Positions 1,803-8,974 of a stretch of DNA of 18,132 nt are shown here, one piece after another. The notes under the pieces were generated by a model. The model had not been told where the DNA came from, did not search any database, and was given only the letters and a program-made list of their open reading frames with translations. Made by a program: the position numbers and the translations under genes. This stretch comes from Hyphomonas sp. (GTDB lineage: Bacteria > Pseudomonadota > Alphaproteobacteria > Caulobacterales > Hyphomonadaceae), in contig JANSXJ010000025.1 in assembly GCA_024743015.1 (NCBI GenBank), forward strand, positions 1-18,132, given 5' to 3'. Position 1 is the stretch's first letter. The number at the start of each line of letters is the position of its first letter.

Positions 1803-4800
1803 TTACCAGCCCCAACGCACACCCGCGCGCGCGCCATACTCATCGCGGTCTGGGACAACTCCAAGGGCCATATTCGCGGACCAATTGCTGTGCAGACGCG
1901 CTGTCCCTGAGAAAGCCAAGGCGGTTTTTCCACTAAAGTAGCCGACATTACCAGTGAGGGCGAACCGCTCATTCGCTTGCAACCAGCTTGAGCCTGCAAG
2001 AGCATTCGACACCGCAATGCCGGCTGAATGCTCGTCCAGCCGTTGCTGCGCGTGAACCAGGGCAGACGCGAGCATATCAACCTCGAGATCCAGCTGTGTG
2101 AAGGAGGATTGGAGCGACTGGATCGCTACCGCGTTGTTGCTGATCGCCTGCTCGCTATTGGCTATCCGAACCTGATTTTCACTGATCGACGCCTGCGCAT
2201 GCACTAGCGCGGTTTGGTTGGCTGAAATATTCTCTTCATGGGTCTCGATATTGATCTCCGCGGCGTCCAGGCGCGCGCCTTGATCGACCATTGTCACTTC
2301 AGCTGTACCCAGTCGGCCTTCATGGTCGATGACATTGCTTTGCAGCTGACCAATCTCTGCTGTGTGCCCTTCAAGCTCTGACTGATGCTGCTCCAATCTG
2401 AGCTCGTGCGTTGAAAGCTGGTCTTCTGTCTGAGCGAGGCGCTCTGTGTTGTCTTCAATCGTCTCGGCATTGTTGGAAATCAAAACCGCATTGTCTTGAT
2501 GTGCCAGTCTGTTTTGCTCGATTGCTGCACCGTTTCCTTGGATCGCTGACCGGTTGTCAGAAATATCAGCCTGCGCCCCCTCAAGTCCAAGCTCCAGATC
2601 AGCAATACTCTCTTGATGGCTCTCCAGATTGATCTCCGCAGCTGCCAGGCGCGTGCCCTGATCGACCATGGTCGCCTCAGCCGAATCCAGTCGGCCTTCA
2701 TGGTCGATCACACTGCTTTGCAACTGATCAATCTCTACTGTGTGCCCTTCAAGCTCTGACTGATGCTGCTCCAGTGTTATCTCATGCGTGGAAAGCTGGA
2801 CTTCTGTCTGAGCGACGCGCTCGGTGTTGTCTGCAATCGTCTCGGCATTGTTGGAAATCAAGACCGCATTGTCTTGATGTGCCAGTCTGTTTTGCTCGAT
2901 TACTGCAGTGTTTCCTTGGATCGCACTCACATTCTCGTCGACCCGGCGCGAGGTTTCTTGAAGGGCTTGAGCATTCCCCTCAATCGCTGATCGGTTTTCA
3001 GAAATATCGCCTTGTGTTCCCTCAAGCCCAAGCTCCAGATCAAGAATGGCTTCAGTGTTCTGCTGGGTCTGCTCAAAACTCGTTTCCGATAACCCGCGCA
3101 GATTGGCAATCGCGGACGCGTTCTCGTCGACACGCTCATTGGTCTGCGAAATTGCTTCCCGGTTTTGCTCGATGCCAGCGCTGTTCTCGGCAATGGTCTC
3201 AACGTTTGTTAGGATGGACTCGCGATTGACACCGATCGCATTCGCGTTCCCCTCCACCTCTTCATCCAAGGCAGAAATCGCGCCCGTATTTTCGCCAATC
3301 GCCGCCGAGTTCTCCTCCAGACGTTGCTGCTGCCCGGCGATTGTATTGGAATTTTCAGCCACCGTCTCTTGGGTGGCACTAAGATCACGCCGCGTTCGCG
3401 CGATCGTTTGTTCGTTTGCGGACACGCGCTCAGCCGTTTGGCTTATGAACGCGGTATTGTTGTCAATGTCGTCGCGATTTTCCGAGATGGCATTCGTGTT
3501 TTCAGCGAGGCTGCTCTCCACCTCTTCGGTTCTTTCTTCCAGGGTCGAGACATGGGCCTCGGTTTCGGCGATGGCGCGGGTGTTTTCCTGCGTCCGTCGC
3601 CTTATGTTGCCTATCGCAACGCCCCCAGATCCAATTTCATCCGCCAAGGCCCCGATCGCGGCCGAATTCTCGTCCAGACGCTGCTGCTGCTCGGCGATTG
3701 AACTGGAGTTTTCAGTCACCGTCTCTTGCGTGGTGCCAAGATCGCGCTGCGCTTGTGCAATCGCTTCCTCATTTACAGAAACGCGCTCAGCCGTTTGAGT
3801 CGTGAACGCGGTATTGCGGTCTATAGCTTCGCGGTTTTCCGAGATGGCATCCGCGTTGTGAGCAAGGCCGCTCTCAACTTCCTCGGTCCTTGTTTCCAAG
3901 GCTGAGACCTGGGTCTCGGTTTCGGCGATGGCGCGGGCGTTTTCCTGCGTCCGCCGTCTGATGTCGCCTATCGCAACACTCCCAGTCCCAATCTCATCCG
4001 CCAAGGCCCCGATCGCGGCCGCGTTTTGGCCAATCGCCATCGCGTTCTCGGAAATGCCAGCGGTGTTTTCGCCGATATCGAAAGCGTTTTGCGCAATACC
4101 GGATTCCGCGTCTGAAACATACGTGTTCAGGCTCTCAATCTGCTGCGCATTCTGTTCGGCCAATTGCGTATTGCTCGCGGCTTGCTCGCTGACCGCGCTC
4201 AATTCTACACCTTGAGAGTCAAACTGAACTTGAAGCGTGTCGAGGCGCTGACTGACCGTGTCCACGCGGCTGGATAATGTACCGAACTGGTTGAAGTTCA
4301 CGGCGTCAAAGGCATCCGTGCCGTCTGCGACATAGGAAATACGGCGCAGCAGGGACTCATCTTCATCCGTCGTCGCCGGATCATCGGCGCGCCCAATCGA
4401 AACTGTATAGTCATCAGCAGCGATGGAATTTGCCCCGAGCGCAACCGAGTAACGGCCCCGGGCTTCGGCCAGCATCCCGAGCGCAGTTGAATATCTCTCC
4501 GCGGCAAGGCTATTCGCGCCAATTGCCAAGCTCCCAAAGCTGCCTTCCGTTACGTTGGCATTGTACCCCAAAGCCGTCCCCACCAGCGCCTGATCGCCAA
4601 CGCCCGCATTGGTTCCAATGGCCACGCTGTCAAATTCAAACGCATTTGCGCCTGTACCGATGGCAATACTCTGCCCGCCTTGGGCATTTGCGGCTCCGCC
4701 GATAGCGAGCGCCCCACCTGGATTGGCTATCGCCGCGGGCCCATCGCTATTGACTTGAAAGTACTGAGCGTCCGCCAACAACCGCTCGTAACTATCGACA

Positions 4801-5981
4801 AGGTTCAACAGCGCGCCTGAATTGTCAGAGATCGCAGTGCGATTAACGCCAATCTCGACCGCGTTGGCATCGACTCTGGACTCCACCGTGTTGAGCTGTC
4901 CGACATTCACCGCATCGGTATCGTTCATACCCGCCGCAACATAGGTGAGGCGACGCCGCAGCGTTTCATCTTCTGGTGAGATTGGATCGTCTTCGCGTCC
5001 GAATGATACGGTATCGGCCTCATCGGCTATGGACGTCGAGCCAATTGCAACGGCCCTCAAGGCCGTGGCTTCGGCTTCAAAACCCAGTGCGGTGGCCCGT
5101 ATCCCATCGGCGTGCGATTCGCCGCCGATTGCCATCGATGCAAATGCGCCATCCGCCACGCCGGCATGATAGCCGAGCGCCACACCAAAGGCCGCTTCAT
5201 CGCCAACACTGGCATACTCTCCGATAGCCACCGCATCTGTGCTCCCCGCATAGGACGCGCCGCCGATCGCGATCGCATTGCTGCCCGCAGCATTTGCCGC
5301 CGCAGAAGTAGCGCGAATGTCCACATAGTCTGTGACCTCATCCAGTGAGCCGATCCGGGTTTCGACAGACTGAATGGCAGCAAGGTTTGTGGAGATATCG
5401 ATCGCATTGTCGCTGATATTGGTCGCAACCGCCTCGAGCTGGCTTAGCGTCACGGCATCATTCGAGTTTTGCGCGTCCGCGAGATTGGTGATGCGCCGCT
5501 TCAAGGTCGAGGAGCCGACCGAAACTGTATTGGCGTCGGCCGCAACAGAATCGGCGCCGAGCGCGACTGAATGCGCCGCAGTAGCTTTGGCGTAAGCTCC
5601 AAGCGCCGTGGAATAGTACCCGTCCGCATCGCTAACTGCACCGATCGCTGTGCCGGCAAAAGCGGCGCCATCGACCTCTGCCTGAAATCCGAACGCCGAT
5701 CCTATATGGGCCGCCGCGTCGATATGTGCGTCGGTTCCGACCGCGACAGAATCATTTGCTTCAGCTTCGGCATCCAGTCCGATGGCGATACCCCCTTCCT
5801 GATCAGCCCGCGCGTTATTGCCGATCGCGATCGCGTCGTCACCGGTCGCCTCAGCCTCGCCCTCAGCGCTGTTAATGTCGATCAATTCCGAGCGTAAATC
5901 ACCAATGGTCTGTGCCATTGCAGCGGGCGAATTCAGCCAGATCACAGACAAGGCCGAGCTTACGAATAACGGTGTTTTCAC
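1803..5981 (-). CDS. Trimeric autotransporter adhesin (YadA-like, type Vc secretion)
   Basis: Surface adhesin of 1392 residues that would trimerise and export itself through its C-terminal anchor. Signal peptide 1-23 (cleavage after AMA). Three head modules follow, each of YadA-type 14-residue repeats (SVAVGTDA, AIAIGGAS, SVAIGTNA patterns) closed by a HIM-like connector: heads about 45-157, 234-329 and 424-531, connectors about 161-182 (RRITNLADAQNSNDAVTLSQL), 342-364 and 546-566. Then a coiled-coil stalk about 568-1310 with two families of long internal repeats. The neck and four-strand YadA anchor fill about 1311-1392, ending in the aromatic residue W1392. Start is GTG at 5981, with GGAG 7 nt upstream; an ATG-TGA start-stop overlaps it. 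AraC-type operator candidates lie 111-152 bp upstream. Ligand unknown. Confidence 0.95.
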   Translation of the reverse strand: MKTPLFVSSALSVIWLNSPAAMAQTIGDLRSELIDINSAEGEAEATGDDAIAIGNNARADQEGGIAIGLDAEAEANDSVAVGTDAHIDAAAHIGSAFGFQAEVDGAAFAGTAIGAVSDADGYYSTALGAYAKATAAHSVALGADSVAADANTVSVGSSTLKRRITNLADAQNSNDAVTLSQLEAVATNISDNAIDISTNLAAIQSVETRIGSLDEVTDYVDIRATSAAANAAGSNAIAIGGASYAGSTDAVAIGEYASVGDEAAFGVALGYHAGVADGAFASMAIGGESHADGIRATALGFEAEATALRAVAIGSTSIADEADTVSFGREDDPISPEDETLRRRLTYVAAGMNDTDAVNVGQLNTVESRVDANAVEIGVNRTAISDNSGALLNLVDSYERLLADAQYFQVNSDGPAAIANPGGALAIGGAANAQGGQSIAIGTGANAFEFDSVAIGTNAGVGDQALVGTALGYNANVTEGSFGSLAIGANSLAAERYSTALGMLAEARGRYSVALGANSIAADDYTVSIGRADDPATTDEDESLLRRISYVADGTDAFDAVNFNQFGTLSSRVDTVSQRLDTLQVQFDSQGVELSAVSEQAASNTQLAEQNAQQIESLNTYVSDAESGIAQNAFDIGENTAGISENAMAIGQNAAAIGALADEIGTGSVAIGDIRRRTQENARAIAETETQVSALETRTEEVESGLAHNADAISENREAIDRNTAFTTQTAERVSVNEEAIAQAQRDLGTTQETVTENSSSIAEQQQRLDENSAAIGALADEIGSGGVAIGNIRRRTQENTRAIAETEAHVSTLEERTEEVESSLAENTNAISENRDDIDNNTAFISQTAERVSANEQTIARTRRDLSATQETVAENSNTIAGQQQRLEENSAAIGENTGAISALDEEVEGNANAIGVNRESILTNVETIAENSAGIEQNREAISQTNERVDENASAIANLRGLSETSFEQTQQNTEAILDLELGLEGTQGDISENRSAIEGNAQALQETSRRVDENVSAIQGNTAVIEQNRLAHQDNAVLISNNAETIADNTERVAQTEVQLSTHEITLEQHQSELEGHTVEIDQLQSSVIDHEGRLDSAEATMVDQGTRLAAAEINLESHQESIADLELGLEGAQADISDNRSAIQGNGAAIEQNRLAHQDNAVLISNNAETIEDNTERLAQTEDQLSTHELRLEQHQSELEGHTAEIGQLQSNVIDHEGRLGTAEVTMVDQGARLDAAEINIETHEENISANQTALVHAQASISENQVRIANSEQAISNNAVAIQSLQSSFTQLDLEVDMLASALVHAQQRLDEHSAGIAVSNALAGSSWLQANERFALTGNVGYFSGKTALAFSGTARLHSNWSANMALGVVPDRDEYGARAGVRWGW
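2223..3041 (-). repeat. Second pair of long stalk repeats (147 and 126 residues) in the adhesin
   Basis: Residues 981-1127 and 1128-1253 are copies: both begin DLELGLEG, share IEQNRLAHQDNAVLISNNAETI, and end AAEIN-E-H. Copy A is 147 residues (21 heptads) and copy B 126 (18 heptads). The difference is a 21-residue block flanked in copy A by two SAI-x-GN motifs (998-1003 and 1019-1024), consistent with loss, in copy B, by recombination between those short repeats. Confidence 0.9.
3318..4031 (-). repeat. Two tandem 119-residue (357-bp) repeats in the adhesin stalk
   Basis: Residues 651-769 and 770-888 are copies of one stalk unit, each opening with AAIGALADEIG, then VAIG-IRRRTQEN and RAIAETE, and continuing through NTAF-QTAERVS-NE and TQETV-ENS. 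The period of 119 residues is exactly 17 heptads, so the coiled-coil register is unchanged across the junction. A third partial start (ENSAAIGEN) follows at about 890. Confidence 0.9.
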
Positions 5982-6092
5982 ATCAATACTCCGAACAAGT
6001 ATTGAGAATGCCGCCCTGCCCGCGCGCAGGATTGCTACGGACCAGTCCCAAGGTTGGTCGCATTAGGGTGAAGCTCGATGCACCTCGAAGTC

Positions 6093-6110
6093 ATTGTCCG
6101 TGCATCTCAA
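6093..6110 (-). promoter_or_regulatory. Candidate AraC-type operator upstream of the adhesin gene
   Basis: Minus-strand 18-mer matching TTGAGA-N6-GANAAT (it reads TTGAGATGCACGGACAAT), ending 111 bp before the adhesin GTG. A second, weaker copy (CTGAGA-N6-GAAAAG) lies at 6115-6132, exactly 22 bp further upstream, so the two face the same side of the helix. Just downstream is TTCGAGGTG-CATC (6077-6089), which also recurs next to the operator of the 8880 gene with one mismatch. A possible -10 (CCTAAT) is at 6062-6067. Confidence 0.55.
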
Positions 6111-6256
6111 GTTACTTTTCCCGACGTCTCAGATCGTTTCGATGAGATCCGTATACGTTGTTGTATATATTATGAAATTATCCAAACTGGCGGTGCATTC
6201 TCGCACCCGCTCAACGTGTCACTTGTCTCGCCAGATTTCGCTTACGATCCGGCAAT

Positions 6257-7318
6257 TTAGGATTGCGGCACACCGTTTTGTTCCACGCTGAACCAGTCGA
6301 GCATTGGATCGTTCAGCGTACGGCGAGGTTCACCACTCATATCTGCCCGATAGCCCGTTTTAAACAACGAACCCGGCGGGCGCCCAAATGCCAGTTTTAC
6401 GGCACGGTTGAAATTCGCATCCGAGGAAAACCCCCACCGCTCAGAGACTTGGCTGAGTCGTCCGCGACGGATGCCGCCTGTCGCGAGATCCCATATCGCG
6501 GAAAACAGGCGCCGGTCCTGAATACGACGACGCACCCCGCCGTCCAGTTCAAACATCCGATAAAGCGTTGCGCGCGACATATTGAACAGCTCGCAAATCT
6601 GTCGAGGTCCCAGATTGGGGTCCTCGAGATGCGTATCAATATATTTTCGGATCAGATTGCGTCGGCCGATCCACCACTCTTCACGATCCGAGACCGGGGT
6701 CCAGGACTCCTGAATCTCCGATTTCAGTAAAGTGATCAGGCTTTCCGGATCAAATGCTTCACCGCCACTGCGCGCAAAGTATCGGTCGAGCAGCACCGCA
6801 AGCTGGTGTCCGCGCGGGGAGTCTACGTCCAAAACAATCGGCGCGACAGGATCCGCATCGGTGAGACCGAGTTCAGATCTTGGGATCATCACTTGCTCGA
6901 TTTCCGCATTGTGATGGCTACCACGAAACTGCTGCTTAAAATCAGTGATCGTGATAATTCCGGGGCGGTGTACATAGTTAGAGTCGGAAAACTCGATCGC
7001 GGCGAACCCCGAGTGTAACCGCTGAACGGAAACAACGCCGCCTGACTGATGCTGCTGACCTTGGCCATGTTGGAACAATTCGCATCCGGTTGCGAACCGG
7101 GCACCGACCAAATGCCCTTCGGCCCTGCTCTCAAACAGGTTGGTGCCATCCGGTCGCCGCGGATGTAACAGATTGATCGATTGGACGGGGGCCCACAGGT
7201 CGAGCCAGTCTTTCATCGACACAGCCCGCATATCCCAGCCAGCGAGTTTTTCTACTCCGGTGTGACCAGGCTGAGCATTCGACGCTTCGGCGTCAGGCGT
7301 TTTGAGAACTAATTGCAT
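6257..7318 (-). CDS. AraC-family transcriptional regulator (paralogue 1, next to the adhesin)
   Basis: The 353-residue protein has an N-terminal AraC-binding-like sensor domain (about 30-200) and a C-terminal double helix-turn-helix domain (about 220-320). First recognition helix: MSRATLYRMFE (247-257). Second: FSSDANFNRAVKLAFG (297-312), followed by PPG. The DNA-binding domain is about half identical to that of the protein at 7837-8880, and both recognition helices are nearly identical, so the two probably bind the same sites. It lies 275 bp upstream of the adhesin on the same strand. ATG at 7318 has no convincing ribosome site; the candidate promoter ends so close to it that the mRNA may be leaderless. 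Internal ATGs at residues 30 and 35 are alternatives. It is likely an activator that autoregulates; effector unknown. Confidence 0.9.
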   Translation of the reverse strand: MQLVLKTPDAEASNAQPGHTGVEKLAGWDMRAVSMKDWLDLWAPVQSINLLHPRRPDGTNLFESRAEGHLVGARFATGCELFQHGQGQQHQSGGVVSVQRLHSGFAAIEFSDSNYVHRPGIITITDFKQQFRGSHHNAEIEQVMIPRSELGLTDADPVAPIVLDVDSPRGHQLAVLLDRYFARSGGEAFDPESLITLLKSEIQESWTPVSDREEWWIGRRNLIRKYIDTHLEDPNLGPRQICELFNMSRATLYRMFELDGGVRRRIQDRRLFSAIWDLATGGIRRGRLSQVSERWGFSSDANFNRAVKLAFGRPPGSLFKTGYRADMSGEPRRTLNDPMLDWFSVEQNGVPQS

Positions 7319-7327
7319 AGTTCAATG

Positions 7328-7370
7328 AGTATCTGAATTTCAGACCCCTGAAATTCTCATCACGTCTCAA
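7328..7370 (-). promoter_or_regulatory. Promoter/operator of AraC paralogue 1: operator, palindrome and -10
   Basis: Operator candidate at 7353-7370 (TTGAGACGTGATGAGAAT on the minus strand): two TGAGA half-sites 10 bp apart. After 19 nt comes a -10-like GATACT (7328-7333), only 9 nt before the ATG at 7318. A perfect 9-bp inverted repeat (GAATTTCAG / CTGAAATTC, 4-nt spacer, 7335-7356) overlaps the proximal half-site and fills the space to the -10, ending one base short of it. It could be the site of a second regulator or a repressive hairpin. Confidence 0.5.
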
Positions 7371-7444
7371 ACTTTGAAGATATCGCATAGTCTAGGAAAC
7401 TATTCAAAAACACTCTGGCGTCGTTTTTGATATTTTATTCAATA

Positions 7445-7487
7445 TTGAGACGTTTGGATAATGACGATTGTTTGTAGATACCATAAT
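7445..7487 (+). promoter_or_regulatory. Candidate operator plus -10 facing the plus strand
   Basis: The 18-mer 7445-7462 (TTGAGACGTTTGGATAAT) matches TTGAGA-N6-GANAAT and agrees with the paralogue-1 operator at 14 of 18 positions, but in the opposite orientation. Nineteen nt later is CATAAT (7482-7487, five of six to the -10 consensus), the same spacing as at both AraC-family promoters. No good -35 is present, which fits an activator-dependent promoter. A start near 7494 would give a transcript into the terminator at 7594-7637. Confidence 0.5.
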
Positions 7488-7493
7488 CCGATT

Positions 7494-7637
7494 GCGTGCG
7501 GCGGGGATCAAACCTCTTTGCACACGTGAATAGCTCTTAACTTTCTTTTGGTTGCGGTAACTAACGTCCCCTAGTACTCACGTGATCAAAAGATGCGCCT
7601 TGGCCGTTTACGCAGTCGGCCAAGGCGCAATTTTTTT
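7494..7637 (+). ncRNA. Putative small RNA (about 145 nt) ending in a strong intrinsic terminator
   Basis: Inferred from a plus-facing operator/-10 (7445-7487) and a plus-strand terminator (7594-7637) with no plus-strand gene between or around them; both flanking genes run on the minus strand. No ribosome site with a credible reading frame is seen, and I do not recognise a known RNA family. The 5' end is an estimate from the -10 position. The terminator could instead serve the minus-strand gene at 7837-8880, which is why confidence is moderate. Confidence 0.4.
7594..7637 (+). terminator. Strong intrinsic terminator, possibly bidirectional
   Basis: Perfect 13-bp GC-rich stem (TGCGCCTTGGCCG at 7594-7606 with its complement at 7617-7629), 10-nt loop, then AA is followed by seven T (7631-7637) on the plus strand. 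In the minus direction the stem is followed by the weaker tract TCTTTTG (7587-7593), so it may also end the transcript of the AraC-family gene at 7837-8880, 200 bp past its stop. Confidence 0.85.
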
Positions 7638-7686
7638 GTAGAGAATTGCTGGCAGGAACCTGACATGCGCCCGGCCGACGGCGCGA

Positions 7687-7724
7687 ACTGAAGCGACGCA
7701 TGCGGATTGAAGCGACGCATTGGG
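7687..7724. repeat. Imperfect 19-bp tandem duplication
   Basis: Two adjacent 19-mers, 7687-7705 and 7706-7724, agree at 16 of 19 positions and share the 13-nt core TGAAGCGACGCAT. They lie in the gap downstream of the AraC-family gene at 7837. Function unknown. Confidence 0.8.
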
Positions 7725-7836
7725 TTCAGATCGACGTTCCAATCAACGCGTATCGCCAGCGCTCCAGCTCATCGACACACTTATGAGACATCTGCTCAAG
7801 CCTCGGCTTGTGGCACGAGACGATCAAGTCACAGCG

Positions 7837-8880
7837 TTAAGCGGCGATTTTATCGAAACCACGTACACCGGTGAGATGCTCGATAGCGCGCTCGGAGTTT
7901 GGTATCATCGCCGACGGGTCCAAGTCGGATAGCGAATATGAGCAAAGTTGTCCGGGGGTCGTTCCGAAGGCGCGACGGACGGAACGCGAAAAATTAGCGT
8001 CAGAGCTAAAGCCCCACCGCTCCGCTGCTTCATGGATCATGCCCCGCTTGATCGGCTTGGATGAAATCTCGAACACGGCCCGGAACAGGCGCCGATTGCT
8101 GATATAGTTCCGCACCCCGTTTTCCGACTCGAACATTCGATAGAGGCTTGCGCGAGAAACCCCGAATTCATGTAAGATCGATGTTGTCGACAAGTCGGGC
8201 GACAACAAATTCCGCTCAATATGTTCGCAGATCAGATCGCGCAGCGCGTTGCGTGCCTGTCTCCGCACGTCGCCTCCGACAGGGTTTCCCACAATCGCGA
8301 ATTTCACGCAGCTGACGAATCTCGAAAAGTCCGACGCGTTCAGTTCAGACGTCCCTCGCTGCAATGGCACGCACAAACGATCCATCTCTCGACCAAGAAG
8401 CCTGGCCGCGAGGGTGCCAGCCCGGAAATGAAGCGATGGAAGCGGTGCCTCCGCCGGAAGCCCCAGTGAGTCCTTGTTCAAATAAACGCTCTCAAGATGA
8501 GAGGCCTCGTGTAACGCGTCAAACTGGTGCGCGTAGTCGATGATCGCGATATCTCCAGGTCGATGAGCAAACGCATTGTCACCGCTGACTCCAATTGTAC
8601 CGCCCCGAACAAAGCGCTGCACTTGGACCAAATCCCGCAAGAGGCTGGAATGGCGCTTTGTCATCCGCAAGGATTGGGCGTCATAGGTCGCACTCACGAT
8701 GACACAGGATTCAGATGTGTGATTGTGGATCTCAAACTGGCCTGAATTCCGACCCGACAGAATGGGCGCAATGTCGAACATTCTGGCAGTCTGCGCGAAC
8801 CAGAAATCAAAGGGCCCCTGACCATGTTCCGAGAGAAACTGAATCTTTGAGTCTGCGCTGACCGGATAGACATCCATCAT
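7837..8880 (-). CDS. AraC-family transcriptional regulator (paralogue 2)
   Basis: The 347-residue protein has the same plan as its neighbour at 6257: N-terminal sensor domain (about 20-200), then a double helix-turn-helix (about 212-313) with VSRASLYRMFE (241-251) and FSSDANFSRSVRRAFG (291-306). The spared recognition residues against a diverged sensor half suggest two regulators reading one operator in response to different signals. The start is ATG 8880 or the adjacent ATG 8877; GAGGG lies 11-14 nt upstream. A motif-matching operator lies 76 bp upstream, so autoregulation or cross-regulation by the paralogue is likely. Its 3' region may run about 200 nt to the hairpin at 7594-7629. Effector and partner are not readable from sequence. 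Confidence 0.9.
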   Translation of the reverse strand: MMDVYPVSADSKIQFLSEHGQGPFDFWFAQTARMFDIAPILSGRNSGQFEIHNHTSESCVIVSATYDAQSLRMTKRHSSLLRDLVQVQRFVRGGTIGVSGDNAFAHRPGDIAIIDYAHQFDALHEASHLESVYLNKDSLGLPAEAPLPSLHFRAGTLAARLLGREMDRLCVPLQRGTSELNASDFSRFVSCVKFAIVGNPVGGDVRRQARNALRDLICEHIERNLLSPDLSTTSILHEFGVSRASLYRMFESENGVRNYISNRRLFRAVFEISSKPIKRGMIHEAAERWGFSSDANFSRSVRRAFGTTPGQLCSYSLSDLDPSAMIPNSERAIEHLTGVRGFDKIAA

Positions 8881-8931
8881 TGTCTGTATCGCCCTCTATC
8901 TGATTGCGGCGCACCGCGTTCTTTCTCAGAA

Positions 8932-8974
8932 CGTATCAGATCCACCTCGAACGAAAATTCTCGTGGAGTCTCAA
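8932..8974 (-). promoter_or_regulatory. Promoter/operator of AraC paralogue 2
   Basis: Operator candidate 8957-8974 reads TTGAGACTCCACGAGAAT on the minus strand, with half-sites TGAGA and CGAGA 10 bp apart. Nineteen nt downstream is GATACG (8932-8937), a weak -10; the hexamer 17 nt before it is GAATTT, the same as at paralogue 1. TTCGAGGTG-GATC (8939-8951) adjoins it, as at the adhesin promoter. The remainder of 8881-9080 shows no gene. Confidence 0.5.

Follow-up and report, generated by a model that had tools for sequence, protein, structure and literature searches.

We analysed an 18,132-nt stretch of DNA (the window; contig JANSXJ010000025.1 of a Hyphomonas sp. assembly) in which the gene for a trimeric adhesin lies beside genes for two AraC-type regulators, AraC_A and AraC_B, and a predicted small RNA that diverges from AraC_A. 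Each of the four is preceded by a copy of the 18-bp motif TTGAGA-N6-GANAAT. Comparison with relatives makes it likely that this motif serves as operator for a family of AraC-type regulators present in some Henriciella species, one that covers the adhesin, AraC_A, AraC_B and the small RNA. The features are as follows, with G numbers labelling individual genomes of the survey described below.

1803..5981, minus strand: YadA-like trimeric autotransporter adhesin of 1392 aa, GTG start, from its open reading frame (ORF) and Pfam matches
6068..6073, minus strand: -10 position of the adhesin, CTTCAC, a poor match, 19 nt past the box
6093..6110, minus strand: proximal adhesin box, exact match; exact or degenerate proximal boxes also in G008, G026, G015, G001 and G003
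6115..6132, minus strand: distal tandem adhesin box, CTGAGACGTCGGGAAAAG, 22 bp upstream of the proximal box
6257..7318, minus strand: AraC_A regulator, 353 aa, HTH_18 above the Pfam cut-off
7328..7333, minus strand: AraC_A -10 hexamer GATACT, 19 nt past the box
7353..7370, minus strand: AraC_A box, GAGAATTTC type, exact match, present in 8 of 8 orthologous promoters
7445..7462, plus strand: small-RNA box, GATAATGAC type, exact match, divergent from the AraC_A box
7482..7487, plus strand: small-RNA -10 hexamer CATAAT, 19 nt past the box
7494..7640, plus strand: small RNA, ends predicted; conserved and structured, with a terminator and no Rfam match
Parts of the small RNA: 5' hairpin; invariant linker, 7528-7543; stem-loop with conserved loop, 7560-7582; intrinsic terminator from 7595
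7837..8880, minus strand: AraC_B regulator, 347 aa, HTH_18 above the Pfam cut-off, confident fold model
8932..8937, minus strand: AraC_B -10 hexamer GATACG, 19 nt past the box
8957..8974, minus strand: AraC_B box, GAGAATTTT type, exact match; the G024 and G015 boxes end alike

A pattern scan finds the motif without mismatch at 6093-6110, 7353-7370 and 8957-8974 on the minus strand and at 7445-7462 on the plus strand, with 11 of the 18 positions invariant and no further exact match in the window, just as an earlier sequence-only reading of this DNA had it. With up to two mismatches allowed there are 11 matches, compared with a mean of 4.6 (standard deviation 2.2, largest 10) in 200 shuffles. 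The same reading had noted a -10-like hexamer exactly 19 nt past the motif at three of the four copies (GATACT, GATACG and CATAAT), which is borne out; at the fourth copy, that of the adhesin, the corresponding position reads CTTCAC. Where it resolved most copies into two TGAGA-like half-sites, a single asymmetric box some 21 bp long (TTGAGAC-N5-GANAAT and the three bases that follow) describes the site better than two equal halves do. A second, degenerate box 22 bp upstream of the adhesin site, at 6115-6132, had gone unmentioned.

The box and a family of regulators across the genus

In the 3.88-Mb genome from which the window comes the motif is clearly enriched: there are 11 exact copies versus 0 of the reversed pattern, and 62 matches versus 6 at one mismatch. 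Sixty-one genomes, 29 of them from the genus (Henriciella), were searched for AraC_B relatives and for the exact motif. Close relatives of AraC_B (best E ≤6e-55) occur in nine of the 29, namely G000, G001, G003, G008, G014, G015, G024, G026 and G028, and these carriers hold, in the same order, 11, 4, 8, 10, 5, 8, 10, 9 and 6 exact sites, 71 in total. The 20 non-carrier genomes of the genus have 0-2 each, 15 in total (Mann-Whitney p 7e-6, with genomes treated as independent, which they are not), and the reversed pattern has 0 copies in all nine carriers. Within the genus, abundance of the motif is confined to members with close relatives of these regulators. The four window sites, before the adhesin, AraC_A, AraC_B and the small RNA, are found again in relatives.

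The box also stands before many members of the regulator family. AraC_B has 41 matches in the carriers, of which one short fragment was left out and the other 40 were all examined. For each, the region from 350 nt upstream to 250 nt downstream of the open frame's 5' end was scored for its best match to the 12 consensus bases of TTGAGAC-N5-GANAAT. A score of 11 or 12 is reached at 27 of the 40 genes, one of these having a degenerate stretch 345 nt upstream; another five reach 10 of 12 (one with just 89 nt of upstream sequence) and eight reach 7-9. As background, overlapping 600-nt stretches were taken from 20-kb loci selected without regard to the motif; a score of 11 or 12 occurs in 0 of 1168 from non-carriers and 2 of 386 from carriers. 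One contig-end gene fragment behind an exact box (L011 2-346, G000:C520) has no Pfam match and clusters with the AraC paralogues, and is probably a further paralogue.

The gene survey behind exact sites covered 69 of the 71, two G026 sites lying outside it. A PrtD-like type I secretion ATP-binding cassette (ABC) transporter follows such a site in G000 and G008 (in G008 just below the NCBIfam cut-off), and G024 has a similar site whose gene was not called by the simple ORF picker. A beta-propeller protein is found in this position in G008, G015, G024 and G028, and in G000 its site lies at the end of a contig; an aldo/keto reductase in G008 and G028; a small protein with weak likeness to OsmE in G000 and G024; a cadherin-repeat protein in G008; and an outer-membrane beta-barrel protein in G014. 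Further genes, in one genome each, include those for a GMC oxidoreductase and a DUF4442 protein. The name adhesin regulon, given by the sequence-only reading, thus fits as far as the adhesin is concerned and is too narrow for the rest, the gene set extending to other AraC genes, the ABC transporter and the cadherin-repeat protein. At two places (L001 757-774, G000:C61; L128 2891-2908, G024:C11) a conserved box has neither an obvious gene close behind nor a -10 hexamer at 19 nt; a further small RNA was considered there and rejected, as no terminator was recognised by eye.

By their C-terminal double helix-turn-helix (HTH_18; 36.9 bits for AraC_A and 43.7 for AraC_B against a cut-off of 33.6) both regulators class as AraC/XylS members, and operator binding is predicted for them. 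The AraC_B fold model, built from a 52-row alignment, has a mean predicted local distance difference test score (pLDDT) of 90.8. Judged by eye, both helix-turn-helix units look alike in most of the aligned family members, consistent with one shared box; AraC_A of G024 is without the second unit. A PDB sequence search (E up to 0.001) gave 10 matches, with MarA, SoxS and Rob among them for the helix-turn-helix part, and only CuxR (PDB 5NLA, E 3.8e-31) spanning both domains. The entry 5NLA is named as CuxR of Sinorhizobium meliloti in PMC7499043, and according to PMC9045272 CuxR binds cyclic di-GMP (c-di-GMP) through an RxxxR motif. In the family here, an RxxxR before residue 200 is common to at most 10 of 52 members, and an RxxxR at residue 206, just before the helix-turn-helix, is present in 49. 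The window's own regulators have RYFAR at 179 (AraC_A) and RMTKR at 72 (AraC_B). Control by c-di-GMP, by analogy with CuxR, was considered and not adopted.

Promoter anatomy and competing readings

Promoter layout was surveyed at 65 sites of the form TTGAGA-C/T-N5-G-N2-AAT with enough flank in the nine carriers; a hand list of eight sites judged coding, seven of which fit the form, was left out, and other sites within ORFs were kept. The 18-mer is followed by G, A and C, each in 39 of the 65 sites, with mostly T in the remainder. Behind a gap of 19 nt, and so starting 20 nt past the final base of the motif, comes a -10-like hexamer; across the 65 sites it begins with G or C in 56 and has T in third place in 44. 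Provided that this hexamer occupies -12 to -7, the box would cover about -49 to -29 and overlap the -35 region, which is where MarA and other class II activators bind (PMC6900184). The ATG of AraC_A lies 9 nt past its -10 hexamer in the window and 8-9 nt past it in 8 of 8 genomes, so the AraC_A mRNA is probably leaderless. Between the AraC_A box and its -10 hexamer runs a perfect 9-bp inverted repeat, GAATTTCAG-ACCC-CTGAAATTC (window 7335-7343 and 7348-7356), partly kept by eye in G024, G008 and G015; it is a possible second operator.

At the adhesin the box is doubled. A distal box lies exactly 22 bp upstream of the proximal one in all six adhesin promoters compared (G000, G008, G026, G015, G001 and G003), with scores, in that order, of 11, 10, 11, 11, 10 and 9 of 15 for the distal and 14, 15, 15, 14, 13 and 12 of 15 for the proximal copy. 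Background positions score at least 10 in 0.06% of cases and at least 9 in 0.3%; the distal box of G003 is weak, because another G003 stretch also scores 9. A score of at least 8 at the 22-bp offset was found at three of the 65 surveyed sites, all of them adhesin sites. In the adhesin leader (window 5983-6005, minus strand) TCAATACT can pair with AGTATTGA around the GGAG ribosome site, similarly in G015 by eye; this may be a translation control.

The boxes of the island differ in their endings. All 11 regulator boxes (AraC_A in eight genomes, AraC_B in three) end in GAGAATT, whereas all 14 output boxes (eight of the small RNA, six of the adhesin) have a pyrimidine at position 15 and continue from AAT with GA. 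For this split Fisher's p is 2e-7, from a hand-entered table, with the pattern noticed after the fact and the orthologues not independent; elsewhere in the carrier genomes the endings are mixed. We tentatively suggest a lineage-specific network of AraC paralogues with one operator in two dialects and the new small RNA as second output. T-ended single boxes (GAGAATT) would mark the regulators and GAY-ended boxes the outputs, in tandem at the adhesin; such dialects, if true, would separate self-control from output control.

The split could also have another meaning, which we regard as unlikely: the AraC proteins would bind to repress at the regulator genes, including their own, and activate at the outputs only, with TTY-like and GAY endings marking the two modes. 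The 11 of 11 versus 14 of 14 division suits this, as does the inverted repeat across the AraC_A spacer (7335-7356). Against it, regulators and small RNA do not differ in their -10 spacing, other AraC genes and targets have mixed endings, and the division was noticed after looking, in orthologous promoters that are not independent.

Much less probable still is that an alternative sigma factor recognises the motif as a promoter element, the AraC genes being mere members of its regulon. The fixed distance to a -10-like hexamer and the genome-wide spread would fit such an element, but if that hexamer is the -10, the conserved bases lie at about -49 to -29 and reach too far upstream for a lone -35 element. 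The signal downstream is a weak one, with T in only 44 of 65, and tandem copies at 22 bp are activator-like. The motif moreover tracks the AraC family across the genus and precedes many of its members. That it is a repeat or coding-bias artefact with no regulatory role is scarcely credible: 24 of 79 sites (exact and relaxed) lie inside ORFs of the simple picker, and the relaxed match TTGAGACGGTCCGCCAAT recurs within a long ORF in three genomes, but the reversed pattern is absent from the nine carriers, the box positions are kept amid otherwise variable sequence and the tandem copies keep one fixed offset.

Sites within ORFs, some of which result from over-extended frames, also weigh against reading the box as an AraC-type operator, and several other observations do so too. 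Five of the 20 non-carrier genomes have weak AraC matches (E 1e-11 to 1e-17), and the carriers may be one clade and hence not independent. A strong box is missing at 13 of the 40 AraC genes, and several genes found behind sites in a single genome form no obvious set. At the adhesin itself the -10 sequence is poor, and the proximal box departs from the exact motif in G015, G001 and G003.

A conserved, predicted small RNA

The small RNA occurs once each in eight of the 29 genus genomes (E up to 1.5e-30), all among the nine carriers, G028 being the carrier that lacks it. The other matches of this search start at E 8e-5 and are to the reverse strand of the terminator or short chance matches; minus-strand matches at the RNA's own place are read as due to its self-complementary terminator. 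A pattern of 19 fixed bases taken from the RNA matched seven stretches only in a collection of 84,980 species (one that perhaps does not include the genome from which the window comes), titled Henriciella in five cases and Hyphomonadaceae bacterium in two. Run with stricter filters on 398 genomes of the order, a model of the RNA found seven Henriciella genomes and a weak match in G272 (E 1.8e-4). An Rfam 15 scan left the small RNA unmatched and gave just a tRNA at gathering score in the window, and a permissive scan around the RNA returned nine matches, all below gathering scores.

The predicted fold is better than that of all 200 shuffles (z -4.65). The consensus structure, which comes from the very alignment it is tested on, has 41 pairs, 11 of them with changes on both sides (27 cells versus 11.7 in shuffles). 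Out of five measures of covariation, three lie above every one of 500 shuffles; the count of two-sided-change pairs is reached by 17 of the 500 and the pair-type count by 55. Neither the linker GAATAGCTCTTAACTT nor, apart from its one Y base, the loop ACTAACG-Y-CCCCTAGTACTCACG shows any change; the 5' hairpin varies, and a terminator hairpin with a T run closes the 3' end. A pseudoknot was dropped, since its outer stem looks broken by eye in G001 and G026 and a nested structure fits the alignment. With its promoter-like sequence, conserved structure and terminator, the element fits the intrinsic-terminator class of small RNAs as judged from its sequence. The small RNA that the sequence-only reading had postulated is in this way well supported, through alignment, fold, covariation and terminator, as a conserved, structured unit.

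The distance between the AraC_A and small-RNA boxes is 92 bp in four genomes, 84 in two, and 82 and 80 in one each. The RNA would be made as a transcript and act by base pairing. Duplex energies were computed for its two conserved segments with the starts of six window genes and of the adhesins of five relatives, against 200 shuffles each. One of these 22 tests gave p <0.05 (the linker paired with the adhesin of G003, a value reached by 0 of 200 shuffles); no target is claimed, because the other adhesins fail to repeat this signal.

A model of the circuit and its counterparts

What the computation shows is that the sites exist, are enriched along with the regulator family, keep a fixed place and are conserved, and that the RNA is a conserved structured unit; binding by the proteins, activation, and cross- and autoregulation are what we infer. 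The N-terminal domain would sense a signal, upon which AraC_A, AraC_B or both would bind the boxes. One monomer probably contacts a box, its two helix-turn-helix units lying one turn apart, and similar DNA-reading helices in the family members would lead to one common box. By overlapping the -35 region the box would act as a class II site and activate sigma-70-type promoters, and the bound regulators would switch on the adhesin (via its two tandem boxes), the divergent small RNA and their own genes. Comparative evidence supports the AraC-type regulon over the adhesin, both regulators and the small RNA that the sequence-only reading had proposed: the regulon is, in our judgement, genuine, of the AraC-family adhesion type, and wider than was seen there.

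In Yersinia, the AraC-family activator VirF drives yadA. The VirF/LcrF-yadA system and the present one both combine an AraC-family activator with a YadA-type adhesin, and the likeness is an analogy of logic only. The adhesin here has YadA_head, YadA_stalk and YadA_anchor (PF05658, PF05662, PF03895) above the Pfam cut-off, that is, the head, stalk and C-terminal anchor of a YadA-type trimeric autotransporter. The marbox of MarA, SoxS and Rob is, in its class II form, asymmetric, read by a monomer, in forward orientation and overlapping the -35 (PMC6900184). The box described here is likewise asymmetric and would overlap the -35 region; its sequence is another one, and its regulators, unlike MarA, SoxS and Rob, carry a modelled N-terminal sensor-like domain.

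The nearest circuit known to us, by analogy, is that of ToxT with TarA and TarB. As described in PMC3136459, the regulon of ToxT, an AraC-family protein of Vibrio cholerae, includes the tcp pilus, TarA and TarB, and ahead of tarB putative toxboxes are found as a direct repeat, in the same arrangement as those of tcpA. Both systems would thus join an AraC-family activator to colonisation genes and small RNAs through short boxes. Unlike with ToxT, two adjacent regulators and further paralogues have one box in common here, the adhesin is a trimeric autotransporter, and the RNA diverges from a regulator gene. ToxT is absent from the 10 PDB matches at E up to 0.001, a search that gives no indication of orthology. 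In the open-access literature, searched by title, there was no paper on a Henriciella adhesin or on a Hyphomonadaceae small RNA of this kind. New here are the small RNA, the tandem adhesin boxes and the differing endings of regulator and output boxes. The proposed circuit for the control of adhesion in Hyphomonadaceae, which includes a new small RNA, can be tested, and with so many paralogous regulators apparently reading one operator, the question arises how crosstalk is avoided.

The gene order mipZ, adhesin, AraC_A, RNA, AraC_B, SnoaL, semialdehyde dehydrogenase is found in G000, G024 and G015. G001, G003 and G026 show mipZ, adhesin, AraC_A and RNA, and G008 shows adhesin, AraC_A, RNA and SnoaL, with AraC_B not in the stretch covered. 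Between G000 and either G024 or G015 the flanking proteins are 95-100% identical, AraC_B 57-65%, AraC_A 59-84%, and the aligned part of the small RNA 97-98%. On the two-dialect reading, the small RNA would be the best conserved part of an otherwise fast-changing adhesin island and would, as second output, connect adhesion to genes elsewhere. In G008 (L068 3810-4803) the AraC_A match is split into two pieces that overlap, pointing to a frameshift or an error in sequencing. The partial losses of the locus in G024 and G028 are natural comparisons. The G024 adhesin consists of the anchor end only, its head missing, and the AraC_A frame runs into this remnant (L061 5477-6595), either by natural deletion or through an assembly fault; G028 retains just an anchor remnant and, by eye, a degenerate box-like stretch between SnoaL and mipZ (L196 5266-5915).

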